Of a DNA stretch of 21,176 nt, positions 3,526-13,596 are shown one piece after another (the first letter of the stretch is position 1; every line of letters begins with the position of its first letter). Origin of the DNA: a virus; IMG/VR virus record IMGVR_UViG_3300017763_000255, positions 1 to 21,176 of that record. One strand, given 5' to 3'. Position numbers and translations under genes: made by a program. Under the pieces are notes generated by a model. That model was given only the letters and a program-made list of their open reading frames with translations. It searched no databases and was not told the DNA's origin.

Positions 3526-5751
3526 TTATTTGTGTAATACAGTTTGTATGTTGGTATTGGATTTTTTCAATAGATCAATCAATGTTGTCATCTGTTCTTG
3601 GGTAATAACACCGTTTGCCGCAATCTCTTTCAGGTAATCTTCTGGTTTTTTCTCTTGATTAACATAACTTTGTGCATCACCAAACATTGGCATTATTCTA
3701 ATTTTGCTTCTAGATCTTGCAGAAGAACCAACTCCGGCAGACCCTTGTCCACTATAATTGGAGCCATCTATATTAAAATTACCAGTACTTGTATTTCCTC
3801 CAAGTACTTTTCCTGAAGAATAATATTGACCATCATTTTCATTTAATTTTTTTATTGCCGCGGCCACGTGTTCGGGATCAACCATTCCATCTTTTGCCGC
3901 TTTAAAACCGGCAGTTCCTGGTGTGGTCTGCATATAACCAAGCATACTCATATTACCAGTTACTCTCATCATCTCGTAAAGAATTTTTCTTCGTTCTGCA
4001 TCAGCTTGGCCTGGTCTACCGGTCGCAACATTATTATATTGATCTCGTAATGCATCAAGTTTACCTAGTTTTTCTTTATTCATTCCTGTTGGTAATTTTT
4101 CAGCTAAACTTCTTTGCAGTGACGCACCTATGGCACCTGCCGCTGTGTGGAACATACCACTCATGAATCTAGTAATACCATTCATAATTTTATTGATCAT
4201 GCCAAATATTCCATTGTTTGGATCTGAGATAAAGTTTGCTAATTTATTTCCTAGGTCTGCAATATAGTTTCCAAAATTTTCAATTGCTTTGATCACACCA
4301 TCTGTTAAAAATGCTAATGCCAATTTGTTAAATGCAACTCTTAATATTGTCATTGTTCTAGATAGTCTTGATTGTACCTGTGCTAACTCGCCTGGTTTTA
4401 ATTCAGCTTGTGCTCTGGCCATCTCTTTGAAGTCATTGGTAACAACATCAATGTTTTCAGACAAATTAGAAAGTTTGATAACTGCATCTGCCATTGGCAC
4501 CCCAGCTATCTCTAATGCTTGTAATCTTCTTCTATCAATTTTTCCAACCCTAATTACATTTTCTCTAAATGCATCTAGTCCTGCCGCAACATCATCTGTT
4601 CCTCCTCCACCGGAAATAATTTTATTCAATTTTTCCAATGAAGAATAAAGTCTAGGTGATACAGTTAGTAGTTGTCTTGCTGATTCATCAAATGCCAATG
4701 TACCTCTACCAATACCTTGTGACAACATACTAGACAGTTGTCCACCTATCTCAGGACCAAATGCGGCCAAACCTGCAAAACCAACCTGTGCTGATTTCAA
4801 AGAATTCTGTCTCATAAAGTCTGGTAGCATTCTCATTCTATTTGTGAACGATGCCATTATTGATGCTTGAGCCACCATGGATCTAATTACATCTGCTGAT
4901 ACTTTAGTAAGTGAAGAGAACTGCTGAGTTACTCTTAAAACTTCTACTGTATGATCTGCAAGATTTTGTCCATCGGCTTGAACAGCAATACCCATTCTTC
5001 TAAATAGTTCTGCTTGTTCACCAACTTGTTCATTTAACTCTGCTACAGACAAACCTAATAGTCCTTGTGAGTCTAATGTTTTTTGAACCACGTTAGAGGC
5101 ATCAAACAATGTTGTGCCAAACACATCTATTGCTTTGCTGTATTGTGTCACGTATTCTGCCGCTTCGTCTACTGTCATACCTGCTTTTGCGGCCGACACA
5201 CCCAGTGATGCTATTCCGTTTGCCACACCTTCTGTGGCCTGGAAATCAAAGAAACCTCCTCTAAATAGTGTTGCTTCTAATCTTCCCAACTTCATTAAAA
5301 ACTTGAATGCTGTTGTTACTCCATGTACAAGTCCAACTAGTGCCGCAACACCAACATTTAAAAATCTTGTGAACTTGCCAAGACTACCAAACACATTACT
5401 AAAAGCACTCCCAACGGTTCCACTAGGTGAAGCCATTTTTTCTACTGCTGATACTAGTTTGGAATTGCCTTTTGACTGTTCTTGAAGTGCTTTCTTTTGA
5501 AGTTTGATTTCTTCTTGATCATTTCTTTTTTGTCGTGCGTCTTCTTTTGTTTGTTGCTGATGTGCTTTTTTTGTAGCTGTTGCTTCGGCTTTATTTCCTT
5601 CTCTGAGTATTTTAGAAATAAGTTTGCTATCGCCAGCGGCCACTCTAAGCTGTTCTTTAAGAATCTTTGCAATTTGCTGTATGCTCTCTTCATAGGCAAA
5701 TTCTGGTATTCTTACCTGTTTTCCATCTAATTCTATATCAATATATTTCAT
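3526..5751 (-). CDS. Tail tape-measure protein (T4 gp29 role)
   Basis: This 741-residue protein has the layout of a tail-length tape measure. Residues about 40-105 are a charged coiled-coil stretch rich in K, E and Q. Residues about 115-165 hold a G/A/F/L-rich hydrophobic helix. A long helical body follows, then a second hydrophobic region near residues 470-560 and a polar C-terminal tail. No enzymatic motif is seen. The length of such proteins sets tail-tube length. Placement supports the role: it starts beside and diverges from gp26/gp51, which resemble the chaperone pair usually found next to tape measures. The ATG at 5751 lacks a Shine-Dalgarno site, and a 7-bp hairpin lies just upstream. 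It could be another large baseplate or tail protein, but tape measure fits best. Confidence 0.75.
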   Translation of the reverse strand: MKYIDIELDGKQVRIPEFAYEESIQQIAKILKEQLRVAAGDSKLISKILREGNKAEATATKKAHQQQTKEDARQKRNDQEEIKLQKKALQEQSKGNSKLVSAVEKMASPSGTVGSAFSNVFGSLGKFTRFLNVGVAALVGLVHGVTTAFKFLMKLGRLEATLFRGGFFDFQATEGVANGIASLGVSAAKAGMTVDEAAEYVTQYSKAIDVFGTTLFDASNVVQKTLDSQGLLGLSVAELNEQVGEQAELFRRMGIAVQADGQNLADHTVEVLRVTQQFSSLTKVSADVIRSMVAQASIMASFTNRMRMLPDFMRQNSLKSAQVGFAGLAAFGPEIGGQLSSMLSQGIGRGTLAFDESARQLLTVSPRLYSSLEKLNKIISGGGGTDDVAAGLDAFRENVIRVGKIDRRRLQALEIAGVPMADAVIKLSNLSENIDVVTNDFKEMARAQAELKPGELAQVQSRLSRTMTILRVAFNKLALAFLTDGVIKAIENFGNYIADLGNKLANFISDPNNGIFGMINKIMNGITRFMSGMFHTAAGAIGASLQRSLAEKLPTGMNKEKLGKLDALRDQYNNVATGRPGQADAERRKILYEMMRVTGNMSMLGYMQTTPGTAGFKAAKDGMVDPEHVAAAIKKLNENDGQYYSSGKVLGGNTSTGNFNIDGSNYSGQGSAGVGSSARSRSKIRIMPMFGDAQSYVNQEKKPEDYLKEIAANGVITQEQMTTLIDLLKKSNTNIQTVLHK

Positions 5752-5853: not shown

Positions 5854-6708
5854 ATGACAACAAACGAAAAACCAAGTAACCCACTAAAGCAATATTATAG
5901 AGCACCTAAACTTTATACTAGTTTGCCATCTGCGGGTCAATACGACAGCACAGAAGAAAAGTCAGCTTCAGGTGAAGTGGCTGTGTATGCCATGACTTCT
6001 AAAGATGAATTGACTTTGAGAAATCCAGATGCATTGTTAAATGGCGAAGCTGTTATACAACTTATTAAAAGTTGTGTTCCAGATATTGCTAATGCAAGAG
6101 CATTGCCAGTATGCGATGTTGACATATTGTTAATTGCAATACGTATGGCAACATATGGAGAAATCATGGAGACAAAAATTAGATCTCCACATGGTGCCAA
6201 AAGAGAAGATGAATATAGTGTGAACTTGAACGTCATACTTGAAAATGTACGACCAATAATGCCTGATCCAAATGTTGTTTTGAGCAACGGCATTGTTTGT
6301 TATGTTCGTCCGTTTACATATAATACACAAACAAAATTAAATCTGTTGGCTTACGACCAAGCCAAAGCAATTCGTAACATTGAAGATGCTGGTGGCGAAG
6401 GATCTAATCCTGAACTGTCGCAATTTAAAACCATGTTTGTGAAATTAGCTGATCAGAACACAGACTCCATGGTTGAATCTGTTGTTAAAATTACCACACC
6501 TGATGGTGATACTGTTCTTGATAAAGCACAAATCAAAGAATTCTTATTAAATTTAGATGCTGTCAGCATCAAAAAAATTGATAATAAGATAATTGAGCTC
6601 AACCAATCCTCAAGCACCGTAAAACAAAAATTTGTTTGTAAAGAGACCAACGAAGAATTTGAATCGGAAGTGAGGCTCGACCCTGCGGATTTTTTCGTAG
6701 CTTCTTAA
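5854..6708 (+). CDS. 26: gp26, T4-type baseplate hub / tail-assembly-chaperone-like protein
   Basis: This 284-residue protein matches the T4 gp26 baseplate family. Recognisable stretches include PKLYTSLPSAG near residue 20, the helix CDVDILLIAIRMATYGE at about residues 106-122, and a C-terminal KFVCKETNEEFESEV strand pair. T4 gp26 is about 208 residues. The ATG at 5854 has AGGA at suitable spacing. The next open frame (gp51) is in the -1 frame without a start codon, and a T TTT TTC heptamer in the correct register lies at 6690-6696, four codons before the stop. Most ribosomes would end at 6708 (gp26), and a fraction could slip to make a gp26-gp51 fusion of 357 residues. The divergent tape-measure gene fits a chaperone-like role. 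Confidence 0.85.
   Translation: MTTNEKPSNPLKQYYRAPKLYTSLPSAGQYDSTEEKSASGEVAVYAMTSKDELTLRNPDALLNGEAVIQLIKSCVPDIANARALPVCDVDILLIAIRMATYGEIMETKIRSPHGAKREDEYSVNLNVILENVRPIMPDPNVVLSNGIVCYVRPFTYNTQTKLNLLAYDQAKAIRNIEDAGGEGSNPELSQFKTMFVKLADQNTDSMVESVVKITTPDGDTVLDKAQIKEFLLNLDAVSIKKIDNKIIELNQSSSTVKQKFVCKETNEEFESEVRLDPADFFVAS
6690..6696 (+). other. Putative -1 ribosomal frameshift site joining gp26 to gp51
   Basis: The gp26 codons read GAT TTT TTC GTA, so T TTT TTC fits the X XXY YYZ pattern in register. A -1 slip continues as CGT AGC TTC and runs open to the gp51 stop at 6926. A purine-rich stretch (GGAAGTGAGG, 6666-6675) upstream could act as an internal Shine-Dalgarno stimulator. A weak stem downstream (about 6715-6750) is possible but not convincing. 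Confidence 0.65.
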
Positions 6709-6926
6709 TAACACACTCTCCTTCTGAGATAGCGACGTACTTCGAAGAGTTGCAAAACGATCAACGACAGATCAGACAAAGTGTTTGGGAAGTGATGTGG
6801 TATATGCGTGGATCAATATCAATGAATGAGGCATGGGGACTTACGTTTGAAGATAAAAAACAAATACAAGAATTCTTAAAAGAAAATCAAGAAAGATTTA
6901 AAGGTGCCATGTCACCAATTGTTTAA
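6696..6926 (+). CDS. 51: gp51-like baseplate hub assembly protein, -1 frame, no start codon of its own
   Basis: From the slip point the -1 frame encodes 76 residues. The core (SPSEIATYFEELQNDQRQIR then SVWEVMWYMRGS) resembles the small gp51 hub-assembly proteins I recall from marine T4-like phages. There is no ATG or GTG in frame between the preceding in-frame stop near 6659 and the conserved region. The first standard alternative, TTG at 6749, would remove the SPSEIATYFEE part, and nothing like a ribosome site precedes it. The simplest reading is expression as the C-terminal half of a gp26-gp51 fusion. The last 4 bases overlap the end of the convergent gene at 6923. A non-standard ATA start at 6708 is the alternative. 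Confidence 0.75.
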   Translation, partial: RSFLITHSPSEIATYFEELQNDQRQIRQSVWEVMWYMRGSISMNEAWGLTFEDKKQIQEFLKENQERFKGAMSPIV

Positions 6927-7670: not shown

Positions 7671-9134
7671 ATGACTAAGAAATCAAACAAAAATATAGAT
7701 AAACCTATCTGCAACGCACCATTTACATCAGCTTATTACTTTGGGCTGAGAGGTAATTTGGGTTTTTGCTGTGCATGGGAAGATGACGAACAGCCGTATT
7801 ACAAAGTACACAAAGACGGAGCTCCGGAAGATTTTTGGACTAGCAAATACGCCCAAGACATCAGACAACAAATGCTTGACGGTGAATGGCCCAAGGGATG
7901 TTCTGGTTGTAAGTGGCACGTTGAACGAGGACTAGAATCAGATATAGCTGGGTTTGAATCAATACCTGTAGATAAAAAAGACTTTGATGTTGTGTACGGA
8001 AATACCACACATAAAAAACCAGTGTATTTGGATTACAGGCCAGACAATTTATGTAACTTGTCGTGTATACAATGTAGTCCCGCCAATAGCTCAATAATTG
8101 AAAACTTTGGAGACAAAGAAACATGGGGCATAGGTCAAGACACATGGCGTGGCTCTTTAAAAACACTTAAAGAAAATAAGGATAGACATCATGAAATAGA
8201 ACAGTTTGTAAATGAACATCTTTTACATCAAGGATTGTTACAAATAAAAGTACTTGGTGGAGAGCCTACTATCAATGCTGGTGTGCAAAGAACTTTAAAA
8301 CATTTGATTGATAAGGACTATGCTAAAGATATTAGATTAAAGGTTACAACAAATTTTACTAATCTTAATAAAACATACGAACTGTTTTCTCATTTCAAAG
8401 AAGTTAGTGTAACTGCTAGTATCGATGGTGCAGGAAAAACATACGAATATGTCAGACACCCAGCCAAATGGAAAGTTGTTAAAAAAAACATATTGACTTT
8501 CATGGAAAAATATCTAACCAAGCCAGGATATTCACTTTCCGTAAACACCTGTATGATGGCCCACATGGCTTTTACGTTAACAGATTGGTTATCTGAATTG
8601 TCAGATATTTGGTTTCGAGAAAGACTTCATATTGTGGGTAAACAAGGTATAGATAACTTGTGGGGAAATATTTCTATAATACCTGTACTTGAGCCTCACT
8701 CAACCATTAATGCAATACCCAGTAAATTCATAAATGATATTTTACATGAATTAGAAACATTAAAGAAAACACTAAATGGAAGAAACAAAACGTTTGTAGA
8801 TGAAATAACTAAATTAGGCTTGAAGCCAAACGACTGGCCGTACGTAGGCACACCAGACTACCTCATTGACAAACTGATAAAAGTATTTCAAGATCACAAG
8901 TATGATGAACAGGCTCACTATGCATGGGCAGTAATGGCCGTGGCACAGCACAACTTTAAAAATTGTGATCTCACAAAATTAGATCCACGTTTCCTAGAGA
9001 TGTTTGATATGCTTGACGAAGGAACCGTGTTTATAAAACATAAATTTTATTATCCAGATACTTACAAATCATGGAAGAAAAACAAAGAAAAAGATCCTAA
9101 TTTTAAATTTTTTCCAACTGCAAAAAAGCCCTAA
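7671..9134 (+). CDS. Radical SAM protein with an N-terminal SPASM/twitch-like cysteine region
   Basis: This 487-residue protein has the radical SAM CxxxCxxC motif at C128, C132 and C135, which binds the 4Fe-4S cluster that cleaves S-adenosylmethionine, and a GGEP motif at 196-199. The N-terminal region carries further cysteines (C14, C33, C34, C77, C80) in a CNAP ... FCCAW ... CSGC pattern typical of the SPASM/twitch auxiliary-cluster region. Here it precedes the radical SAM core instead of following it. Related proteins modify peptides, sugars or RNA; the substrate cannot be told from sequence. No small precursor peptide is evident next to it. It has no Shine-Dalgarno site and a late-like motif 6 bases before the ATG. 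A role in modifying a virion protein or surface glycan is speculation. Confidence 0.85.
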   Translation: MTKKSNKNIDKPICNAPFTSAYYFGLRGNLGFCCAWEDDEQPYYKVHKDGAPEDFWTSKYAQDIRQQMLDGEWPKGCSGCKWHVERGLESDIAGFESIPVDKKDFDVVYGNTTHKKPVYLDYRPDNLCNLSCIQCSPANSSIIENFGDKETWGIGQDTWRGSLKTLKENKDRHHEIEQFVNEHLLHQGLLQIKVLGGEPTINAGVQRTLKHLIDKDYAKDIRLKVTTNFTNLNKTYELFSHFKEVSVTASIDGAGKTYEYVRHPAKWKVVKKNILTFMEKYLTKPGYSLSVNTCMMAHMAFTLTDWLSELSDIWFRERLHIVGKQGIDNLWGNISIIPVLEPHSTINAIPSKFINDILHELETLKKTLNGRNKTFVDEITKLGLKPNDWPYVGTPDYLIDKLIKVFQDHKYDEQAHYAWAVMAVAQHNFKNCDLTKLDPRFLEMFDMLDEGTVFIKHKFYYPDTYKSWKKNKEKDPNFKFFPTAKKP

Positions 9135-11873: not shown

Positions 11874-12947
11874 CTATTTATTCCAGCCGTACCTCTTCCA
11901 GCTGTTTGGCATCAATGCATTTAATTTTTCTTTATCTGGGTCTCCGTGTATAATCATATGTAATCTTGCTTTGTTTGAATTGTTATGTACCCAATGTATT
12001 GTGCCCACATTCCATATAAAAGCTGTGCCAGGTGCATACGGAATCATTCCCCAATCTTTAACATAAACGCCAGCACCATTTGGATTACTAATAGCTAGAT
12101 TAAAACCCATGCATCTATTTTCAGCATCTTGGTGAGGTAAAATATATCCACCGGGTTCAATCCATGAAAATCTAATTCTAGAATAATTTTTTAACGGAAA
12201 ATCATGCATAAAAAATCTTTTAGTTATTGGACATTCGTCTGCCAGTTCAGTCCAATCTGGTTTTGGTTTGGTTGGATATTTTGTTTTGTCAACACCAACA
12301 TAGTCATAGCCAGATGTGATATCAGAAGCCAAACCAAATAGTGTTGTTGCATTCCAAGTACCACCAGCTTCATCTGATCTATGCATAAGCGATTTGTTTT
12401 TTACATTAATGGCTTCCATATACATTTTTTCATGCGGAACTTTTAAATCTAACTGTAGCCATGGGTATGGGCAGTCATCACTCTCAAACCAATTCCACAA
12501 ATCTTTATCTTTTTTTGGAAAATTATATGGCCTTTCGATGTAAGCTTCTTTCCATAATTTTAACATTTTTTCTGCAGTCAAGTTTTTTACCAATTTACTA
12601 TTAATATAATCCGAATTGTTATATCCTAAAATTAATTGAAATATAGGACTTAAACCATACTTTGCTTCCAACGTAGGCATTCTTTTATTATCTATTTCAT
12701 TAGGAATAAAGAAATCAATTTGTTGTTTTTGGCAATAAGACCTTACGTATTTGTTGATAGCAGATTCTCCTGGGTTACAAACGAACACCAAATCTTTCCC
12801 CTCAACAAATTTTGCTACAGAATTTTTGTTATAAGGCATTTCCAAAAAGTCAAACTGAAATCTTTTTTCGTTTTTCAATAAATTTGCAATAGCCTCGCTC
12901 AACCTAGGACCTTCAATATGACCTATAACTCCAACTTTAATCTGCAT
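11874..12947 (-). CDS. Aspartyl/asparaginyl beta-hydroxylase-like protein fused to an N-terminal domain
   Basis: This 357-residue protein has two parts. Residues about 1-135 form an alternating strand-helix domain starting IKVGVIGHIEG, which I do not recognise. Residues about 145-357 match the Asp/Arg hydroxylase family of Fe(II)/2-oxoglutarate oxygenases: IEPGG, the metal ligands H272 and D274 (PHQD), a distal H318, and R328 in SNKARLH that would hold 2-oxoglutarate. This half is a clear paralogue of the next upstream gene. The start chosen is ATG 12947, with GGAG about 10 bases before it; TTG at 12953 would add two residues. It overlaps the upstream gene by 11 bases. The substrate is unknown: a peptide side chain, a free amino acid or a lipid head group are all possible. 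Confidence 0.8.
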   Translation of the reverse strand: MQIKVGVIGHIEGPRLSEAIANLLKNEKRFQFDFLEMPYNKNSVAKFVEGKDLVFVCNPGESAINKYVRSYCQKQQIDFFIPNEIDNKRMPTLEAKYGLSPIFQLILGYNNSDYINSKLVKNLTAEKMLKLWKEAYIERPYNFPKKDKDLWNWFESDDCPYPWLQLDLKVPHEKMYMEAINVKNKSLMHRSDEAGGTWNATTLFGLASDITSGYDYVGVDKTKYPTKPKPDWTELADECPITKRFFMHDFPLKNYSRIRFSWIEPGGYILPHQDAENRCMGFNLAISNPNGAGVYVKDWGMIPYAPGTAFIWNVGTIHWVHNNSNKARLHMIIHGDPDKEKLNALMPNSWKRYGWNK

Positions 12948-13596
12948 AACCAAATTTCTCCCAACTTCTTTCTAATATATCAATCCATTCTTTGTAATGT
13001 CTTTTACCATGTGCAATAATATGTAATCTAACTTTATTGGAGTTATTAATAACTTCATGATGTTGTCCAACATCAATTAAAAATGCTACTCCGGGTTTAA
13101 ATGGTACTGTGCCTTTGTTTTTAAAATTAAAATCACAACCATCCGGATTATTAATTGCTATATTAACCGGCGTGAATGTTCTTTGTTCGCTGTCTCTATG
13201 CAAACTAATTTTTCCACCTGGTTCAAGCCACATAAATCTTAGTCTTTTGTATTGTCTATATGGAAATTTATTTTTAAAATATTCTGTAGTAGTAGGACAT
13301 TGATCAGCAATATCTGTCCATTTGTAATCAATTTGATCTTCTGTTAAACCTTTGTTTTCTTCGTACTGTTCCCAAGCATTGGTTTTAGTAGAACTAATAC
13401 CATGCAGGCAAAGACTAGACCAGCCGCCTCCCTGGCCATAATCTCTATGTGAGACAGCCTGATCTTTAACCGCTGATGCTTCTTTATAAATTTCTTCATA
13501 AGGAATATCATTAATATCTAGTTGCAAATACGGAATAGTTTTATCTTGCTCTAACCATTCCCAAATATCTTTGTCTGTGTTTGGGTTCATACACAT
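12937..13596 (-). CDS. Aspartyl/asparaginyl beta-hydroxylase-like protein, single domain
   Basis: This 219-residue protein is the stand-alone paralogue of the C-terminal half of its downstream neighbour. It has LEPGG, HRD at 133-135, a distal H180 in HHEVINNS and R190, the full ligand set of an Fe(II)/2-oxoglutarate oxygenase of the Asp/Arg hydroxylase type. The start may be ATG 13596 or ATG 13590 (two residues shorter). Both lie in or beside the 3' arm of a 13-bp hairpin, and no Shine-Dalgarno site is visible. A late-like AGTAAATA ends exactly 5 bases before ATG 13590, which favours the shorter form if that promoter is used. The pair suggests a tandem duplication, with one copy later gaining or losing the N-terminal domain. 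Confidence 0.8.
   Translation of the reverse strand: MCMNPNTDKDIWEWLEQDKTIPYLQLDINDIPYEEIYKEASAVKDQAVSHRDYGQGGGWSSLCLHGISSTKTNAWEQYEENKGLTEDQIDYKWTDIADQCPTTTEYFKNKFPYRQYKRLRFMWLEPGGKISLHRDSEQRTFTPVNIAINNPDGCDFNFKNKGTVPFKPGVAFLIDVGQHHEVINNSNKVRLHIIAHGKRHYKEWIDILERSWEKFGYAD

Follow-up and report, generated by a model that had tools for sequence, protein, structure and literature searches.

The production of a short tail assembly chaperone together with a frameshift fusion is a classical principle exemplified by the lambda G/GT pair, in which the slip site is G GGA AAG, and Xu, Hendrix and Duda are said to have described in 2004 a conserved tail-gene frameshift, of which P2 E/E′ is another case. 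For T4-like phages, tail assembly chaperone genes were identified by Vladimirov, Gautam and Davidson (2022; Virology 566:9-15), as cited in PMC10885494 and PMC12846349. A passage of the PRFect paper describes some T4-like phages as encoding the short form and a longer fusion in separate genes, in place of frameshifting (PMC10885494), and a passage of the Adele paper treats poly-T slip sites as known in T4-like TAC-N genes (PMC12846349). The frameshifted tail assembly chaperone of the Vandenendeviridae follows the same logic as the locus described here, with a poly-T slip site near the TAC-N end, but its motif is GTTTTT and it belongs to another phage family (PMC12846349). T4 gp51 is needed for assembly yet absent from the particle (PMC3004832), and in the study of Sullivan et al. 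(2010; PMC3037559) the gp51 of cyanophages and vibriophages appeared cut back to about 20% of its T4 equivalent, and Aeh1 appeared to lack gp51. The principle of a frameshifted chaperone is already known, and the present locus, from an uncultivated marine relative of T4 near the jumbo-phage group, is a further case; what is reported below on stimulators, on the extension to jumbo phages and on why cyanophage gp51 looks 'short' may go beyond Vladimirov et al. 2022.

In the window, by which we mean the whole stretch of 21,176 nucleotides that was analysed, gp26 ends GAC CCT GCG GAT TTT TTC GTA GCT TCT TAA (TAA, 6706-6708) and a second TAA follows immediately (Table 1). The first-pass annotation had recognized that T TTT TTC stands in the correct register before this stop, and the register is indeed the X XXY YYZ that is required for simultaneous -1 slippage; three sense codons separate the heptamer from the stop, not the four codons given there. 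It was also right that the -1 frame is open through the downstream coding region (6663-6926, overlapping the gp26 frame by 46 nt) and that this ORF has no usable start in the window, where the first ATG, GTG or TTG in the -1 frame is a TTG 42 nt beyond the gp26 stop, well within the conserved region. T TTT TTC at 6690-6696 is the sole copy among 20 ORFs checked in the window, in which chance would supply about 0.09 A6/T6-type in-frame heptamers per 15 codons. Judged by the window alone, this lone heptamer is suggestive and only mildly surprising, and it is the comparative evidence, not the single site, that settles the programmed-frameshift reading.

Table 1. Features at and beside the gp26 junction in the window.
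Feature	Coordinates	Strand	Basis
gp26-like ORF, 284 aa; candidate short (G-like, TAC-N) form	5854..6708	+	PF12322, phrog_150, AlphaFold/BFVD matches
Slippery heptamer T TTT TTC	6690..6696	+	Sequence; in register in 112/115 relatives; codon invariance in window clade
Zero-frame stop TAA with tandem second TAA	6706..6711	+	Sequence; tandem stop retained in L008-L020
-1 frame extension, 78 aa; putative T (TAC-NC) part, would join gp26 residues up to FF	6690..6926	+	Open frame, relatives, conservation
Structural protein, 741 aa; tape-measure candidate	3526..5751	-	Divergently transcribed; profile matches

The gp26 ORF matches PF12322 T4_baseplate (E 2e-15; 57.4 bits vs a gathering cut-off of 24.5) and phrog_150 baseplate hub (E 1e-20), and the named best viral matches of its AlphaFold model (mean pLDDT 79) in BFVD are mostly T4-type baseplate hub or assembly proteins. 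PF12322 is common to the window gp26, T4 gp26 and T4 gp51, and both phages would have one protein in a short and a long version. The likeness to lambda G/GT lies in a short protein with a -1 fusion, a heptamer just 5′ of the stop and a downstream part that in the window has no start of its own. The locus differs from the lambda pair in its slip site (T TTT TTC vs G GGA AAG), in its position beside T4-type structural genes, and in sequence and fold: a search of PDB sequences gave no match that would connect it with lambda G or other known tail chaperones, and in a Foldseek comparison with the PDB the gp26 model resembled no known tail assembly chaperone in fold (best E about 1). The -1 domain had no confident match in Pfam or PHROG. 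Its relatives in the named phages Atu_ph07, Phosso and SCTP-2 share 31-32% identity with it and begin exactly at the slip site. Profile comparison detected no homology of the window/jumbo -1 domain to T4 gp51 (hhalign, 0.2%) or to the cyanophage -1 domain (3%), and the name gp51 for the downstream ORF of the window rests on position, not homology. For the cyanophage -1 domain, hhalign shows homology with the C-terminal part of T4 gp51 (96.7%), and in S-PM2 the phrog_150 profile itself runs out of gp26 into the -1 frame.

The junction was surveyed in 115 loci, comprising 13 close IMG/VR relatives, 80 cyanophage-type loci, 3 jumbo loci and named phages. An in-register T6 heptamer is present in 112 of them (110 TTTTTTC, one TTTTTTG in Rhizobium N34 and one TTTTTTT in phiN3), and all 112 have an open -1 frame of 58-79 aa; among these are named phages without a gp51 annotation, namely avDM12-TAAL, Cronobacter S13 and PA5oct. 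When gp26 was clustered at 90% identity, 53 of 58 clusters had TTTTTTC, one TTTTTTG and one TTTTTTT; at 50% identity, TTTTTTC was found in 14 of 19 clusters, the G and T variants in one each, and three clusters were without a heptamer. Of 186 FF pairs in the remaining ORFs of these loci, 12 are coded as T TTT TTC, and at this background rate the binomial probability of 14 out of 19 clusters is 2e-13, a value that ignores residual relatedness and is a guide only. Judged from this survey, conservation of the heptamer across cyanophages, vibriophages and jumbo phages is not chance. Cyanophage (Kyanoviridae) and KVP40-type gp26/gp51 loci share the identical heptamer, register and offset with the window. 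Within the window clade, GAT TTT TTC GTA is codon-invariant, a property of only 47 of the 137 amino-acid-invariant codons, and in the -1 frame FFRSFLITHSPSEI is conserved 5′ of any start codon, with differences weighted to codon position 3. In a jumbo subgroup (L113, L114, L126, L127, L128), the zero-frame stop lies 36 nt past the heptamer, so that a stretch of about 11 codons is shared by the two reading frames.

T4-type phages serve as a natural control for these observations. In T4, gp26 and gp51 form a paralogous pair, each matching PF12322 at 1e-51 or better and each encoded on the strand opposite to the other, and the Tevenvirinae gp51 is a 249-aa in-frame fused paralogue. Because of this paralogy and the homology of its C-terminus to the cyanophage -1 domain, T4 gp51 is a genome-encoded counterpart of the frameshift fusion, although T4, unlike the window, uses two genes derived by duplication and fusion and does so without frameshifting. 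The end of Tevenvirinae gp26 retains FF or a variant, coded TTC TTT (as in T4) or G-TTT-TTT, so that the residues survive without the slip site. The proposal in the first-pass annotation that gp26 and the gp26-gp51 fusion are the T4-like counterpart of the lambda pair is supported by the retention of heptamer and register over very wide divergence, by the lack of a near start in about a third of lineages and by the absence of the heptamer from phages in which gp51 has been fused into a gene of its own; the -1 domain of the window shows no sequence link to the gp51 of T4 or cyanophages.

Two candidate stimulators accompany the heptamer in cyanophage-type loci. An SD-like element lies 6-12 nt 5′ of the heptamer (mean -5.2 vs -0.66 kcal/mol in the control) and is at or below -5 kcal/mol in 56% of 55 clusters vs 5.7% of the control, a signal that is partly forced by a conserved E-G-L motif. 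The dnaX frameshift also has an upstream SD-like element. On the 3′ side, a hairpin starts ~5-10 nt past the heptamer (mean z -1.84 vs -0.18 and -0.74). An RNAalifold consensus fold over all cyanophages gave no common structure because two subclades use different hairpin registers, in each of which ~92% of stem cells are paired vs 24-61% when the register is slid; covariation is slight (a single compensatory pair), and the sequence of one subclade hardly varies. The window clade was scored for the SD-like element and the hairpin, and neither was clear. These loci further differ from the window in having an ATG at the junction in many cases and another -1 domain.

We propose that a programmed -1 frameshift at T TTT TTC yields a short and a long form of a tail assembly chaperone, a reading to which we assign a probability of about 0.88 and which draws on the observed anatomy of the sequence, its conservation, the missing near start and the duplication in T4-type phages. 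Most ribosomes would read gp26 to the TAA and release the 284-aa form. In a minority, tRNA-Phe in the P and A sites on T TTT TTC would slip back one base, both re-pairing with UUU, and these ribosomes would bypass the stop and read 76 more codons, generating a gp26-T fusion of about 357 aa. Slippage is presumed to take place at a useful rate and the products to function as chaperones; on the model of lambda G/GT, the short form would be expected to cover the tape-measure protein, and the less abundant fusion to bring in subunits of the tail tube or hub. A T6 homopolymer in a metagenomic contig could also reflect an assembly or sequencing error, or a decayed gene, but the same T6C and frame offset recur in >100 independently sequenced loci, isolates included, and the -1 frame is under protein-level conservation, which leaves this explanation with a negligible probability.

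The start codons of the -1 ORF bear on whether it might instead specify a separate small protein, made by coupled reinitiation at the gp26 stop, with the T-run being incidental. Such a route would fit the ATG found at -4 to +5 of the stop in 26 of the 55 heptamer-bearing clusters, the separate gp51 annotated in S-PM2 and P-SSM2, and the TAATG that stands in place of the heptamer in Cygsa01 and Vibrio K475, two of the three Ackermann-like loci that lack the slip site. (The third, Serratia phage phiMAM1, has neither heptamer nor ATG at the junction, ~3762, though its -1 frame is open and gp51-like.) The first-pass annotation had named a relative with its own ATG and no heptamer as the case that would count against frameshifting; Cygsa01 and Vibrio K475 are of this kind, but the start there replaces the heptamer, whereas the 26 clusters have both. 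Its expectation that the junction would conserve the heptamer and lack a start is borne out for the former, and for the latter only in 20 of the 55 clusters, the window among them, which have no ATG, GTG or TTG before +17 in the -1 frame. This group, the entire window clade included, argues against reinitiation, since the protein is nevertheless conserved back to the slip site. Moreover, the heptamer persists alongside the ATG and has disappeared from T4-type phages, whose gp51 is encoded by a fused gene of its own, and the SD-like element, at ~24 nt before the junction ATG, is too distant to serve it and well placed for the frameshift. We consider reinitiation to be highly improbable. A combination, in which the fusion always arises by frameshifting and free gp51 is an additional product wherever a lineage has a junction ATG, is less easily set aside given that about half of the clusters carry both heptamer and ATG, and a free -1 product may be formed in those 26. 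However, the position of the ATG is elsewhere occupied by TTG, CTC or further codons, as expected for an ordinary hydrophobic residue, and the combination is inapplicable to the window, which has no junction ATG; we regard it as unlikely overall.

With respect to its evolution, we lean slightly toward the view that the T TTT TTC frameshift is ancestral for two chaperone isoforms across the T4 superfamily, including the Rak2/121Q-type and Agrobacterium jumbo phages. In this view it would have given way on at least two occasions, to gene duplication with in-frame fusion among T4 and its relatives and to termination-reinitiation among Ackermann-like phages, and the -1 domain would have been exchanged, or have diverged past recognition, between jumbo phages and cyanophages with the slip site fixed. 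Frameshift, reinitiation and duplication would form a natural series of means for keeping a required isoform pair. Frameshifting would account for the puzzle of the 'short' gp51 of cyanophages and vibriophages, and many cyanophage, vibriophage and jumbo-phage genome records probably miss or mis-start the -1 protein. After gp26 in avDM12-TAAL (L118) and Cronobacter S13 (L121), the gp51-equivalent -1 extension is unannotated. An unannotated -1 extension in an Aeh1-like phage may explain the reported absence of gp51.

The first-pass annotation had also placed a tape-measure gene adjacent to the pair. Genes for lambda-type frameshifted chaperones lie between those for the tail tube and the tape measure. 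In the window, the neighbouring 741-aa structural protein is only tape-measure-like and is encoded on the opposite strand, and it is a plausible candidate for the tape measure on the basis of profile similarity. A single-sequence search of jumbo genomes for its homologue found nothing, and profile comparison succeeded, aligning it with a syntenic virion structural protein of jumbo phages (hhalign 96.8%); one relative matches the phrog_10613 tape measure (E 7e-4). In KVP40-type phages and phiN3, the gene 5′ of gp26 is annotated as tail tube or tube initiator and the gene 3′ of gp51 weakly matches tape-measure PHROGs, one small ORF intervening in phiN3. The gene after gp51 in S-PM2 (L031, 6357-9860) has ADP-ribosyltransferase and phage tail lysozyme domains, unlike its syntenic counterparts. 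Elsewhere in the window, a 487-aa radical SAM-like protein (7671-9134, + strand) falls just under the Pfam cut-off, and adjacent genes at 11874-12953 and 12937-13596 (- strand) both match PF05118 aspartyl/asparaginyl beta-hydroxylase, constituting a tandem 2-oxoglutarate-type hydroxylase pair in a phage.
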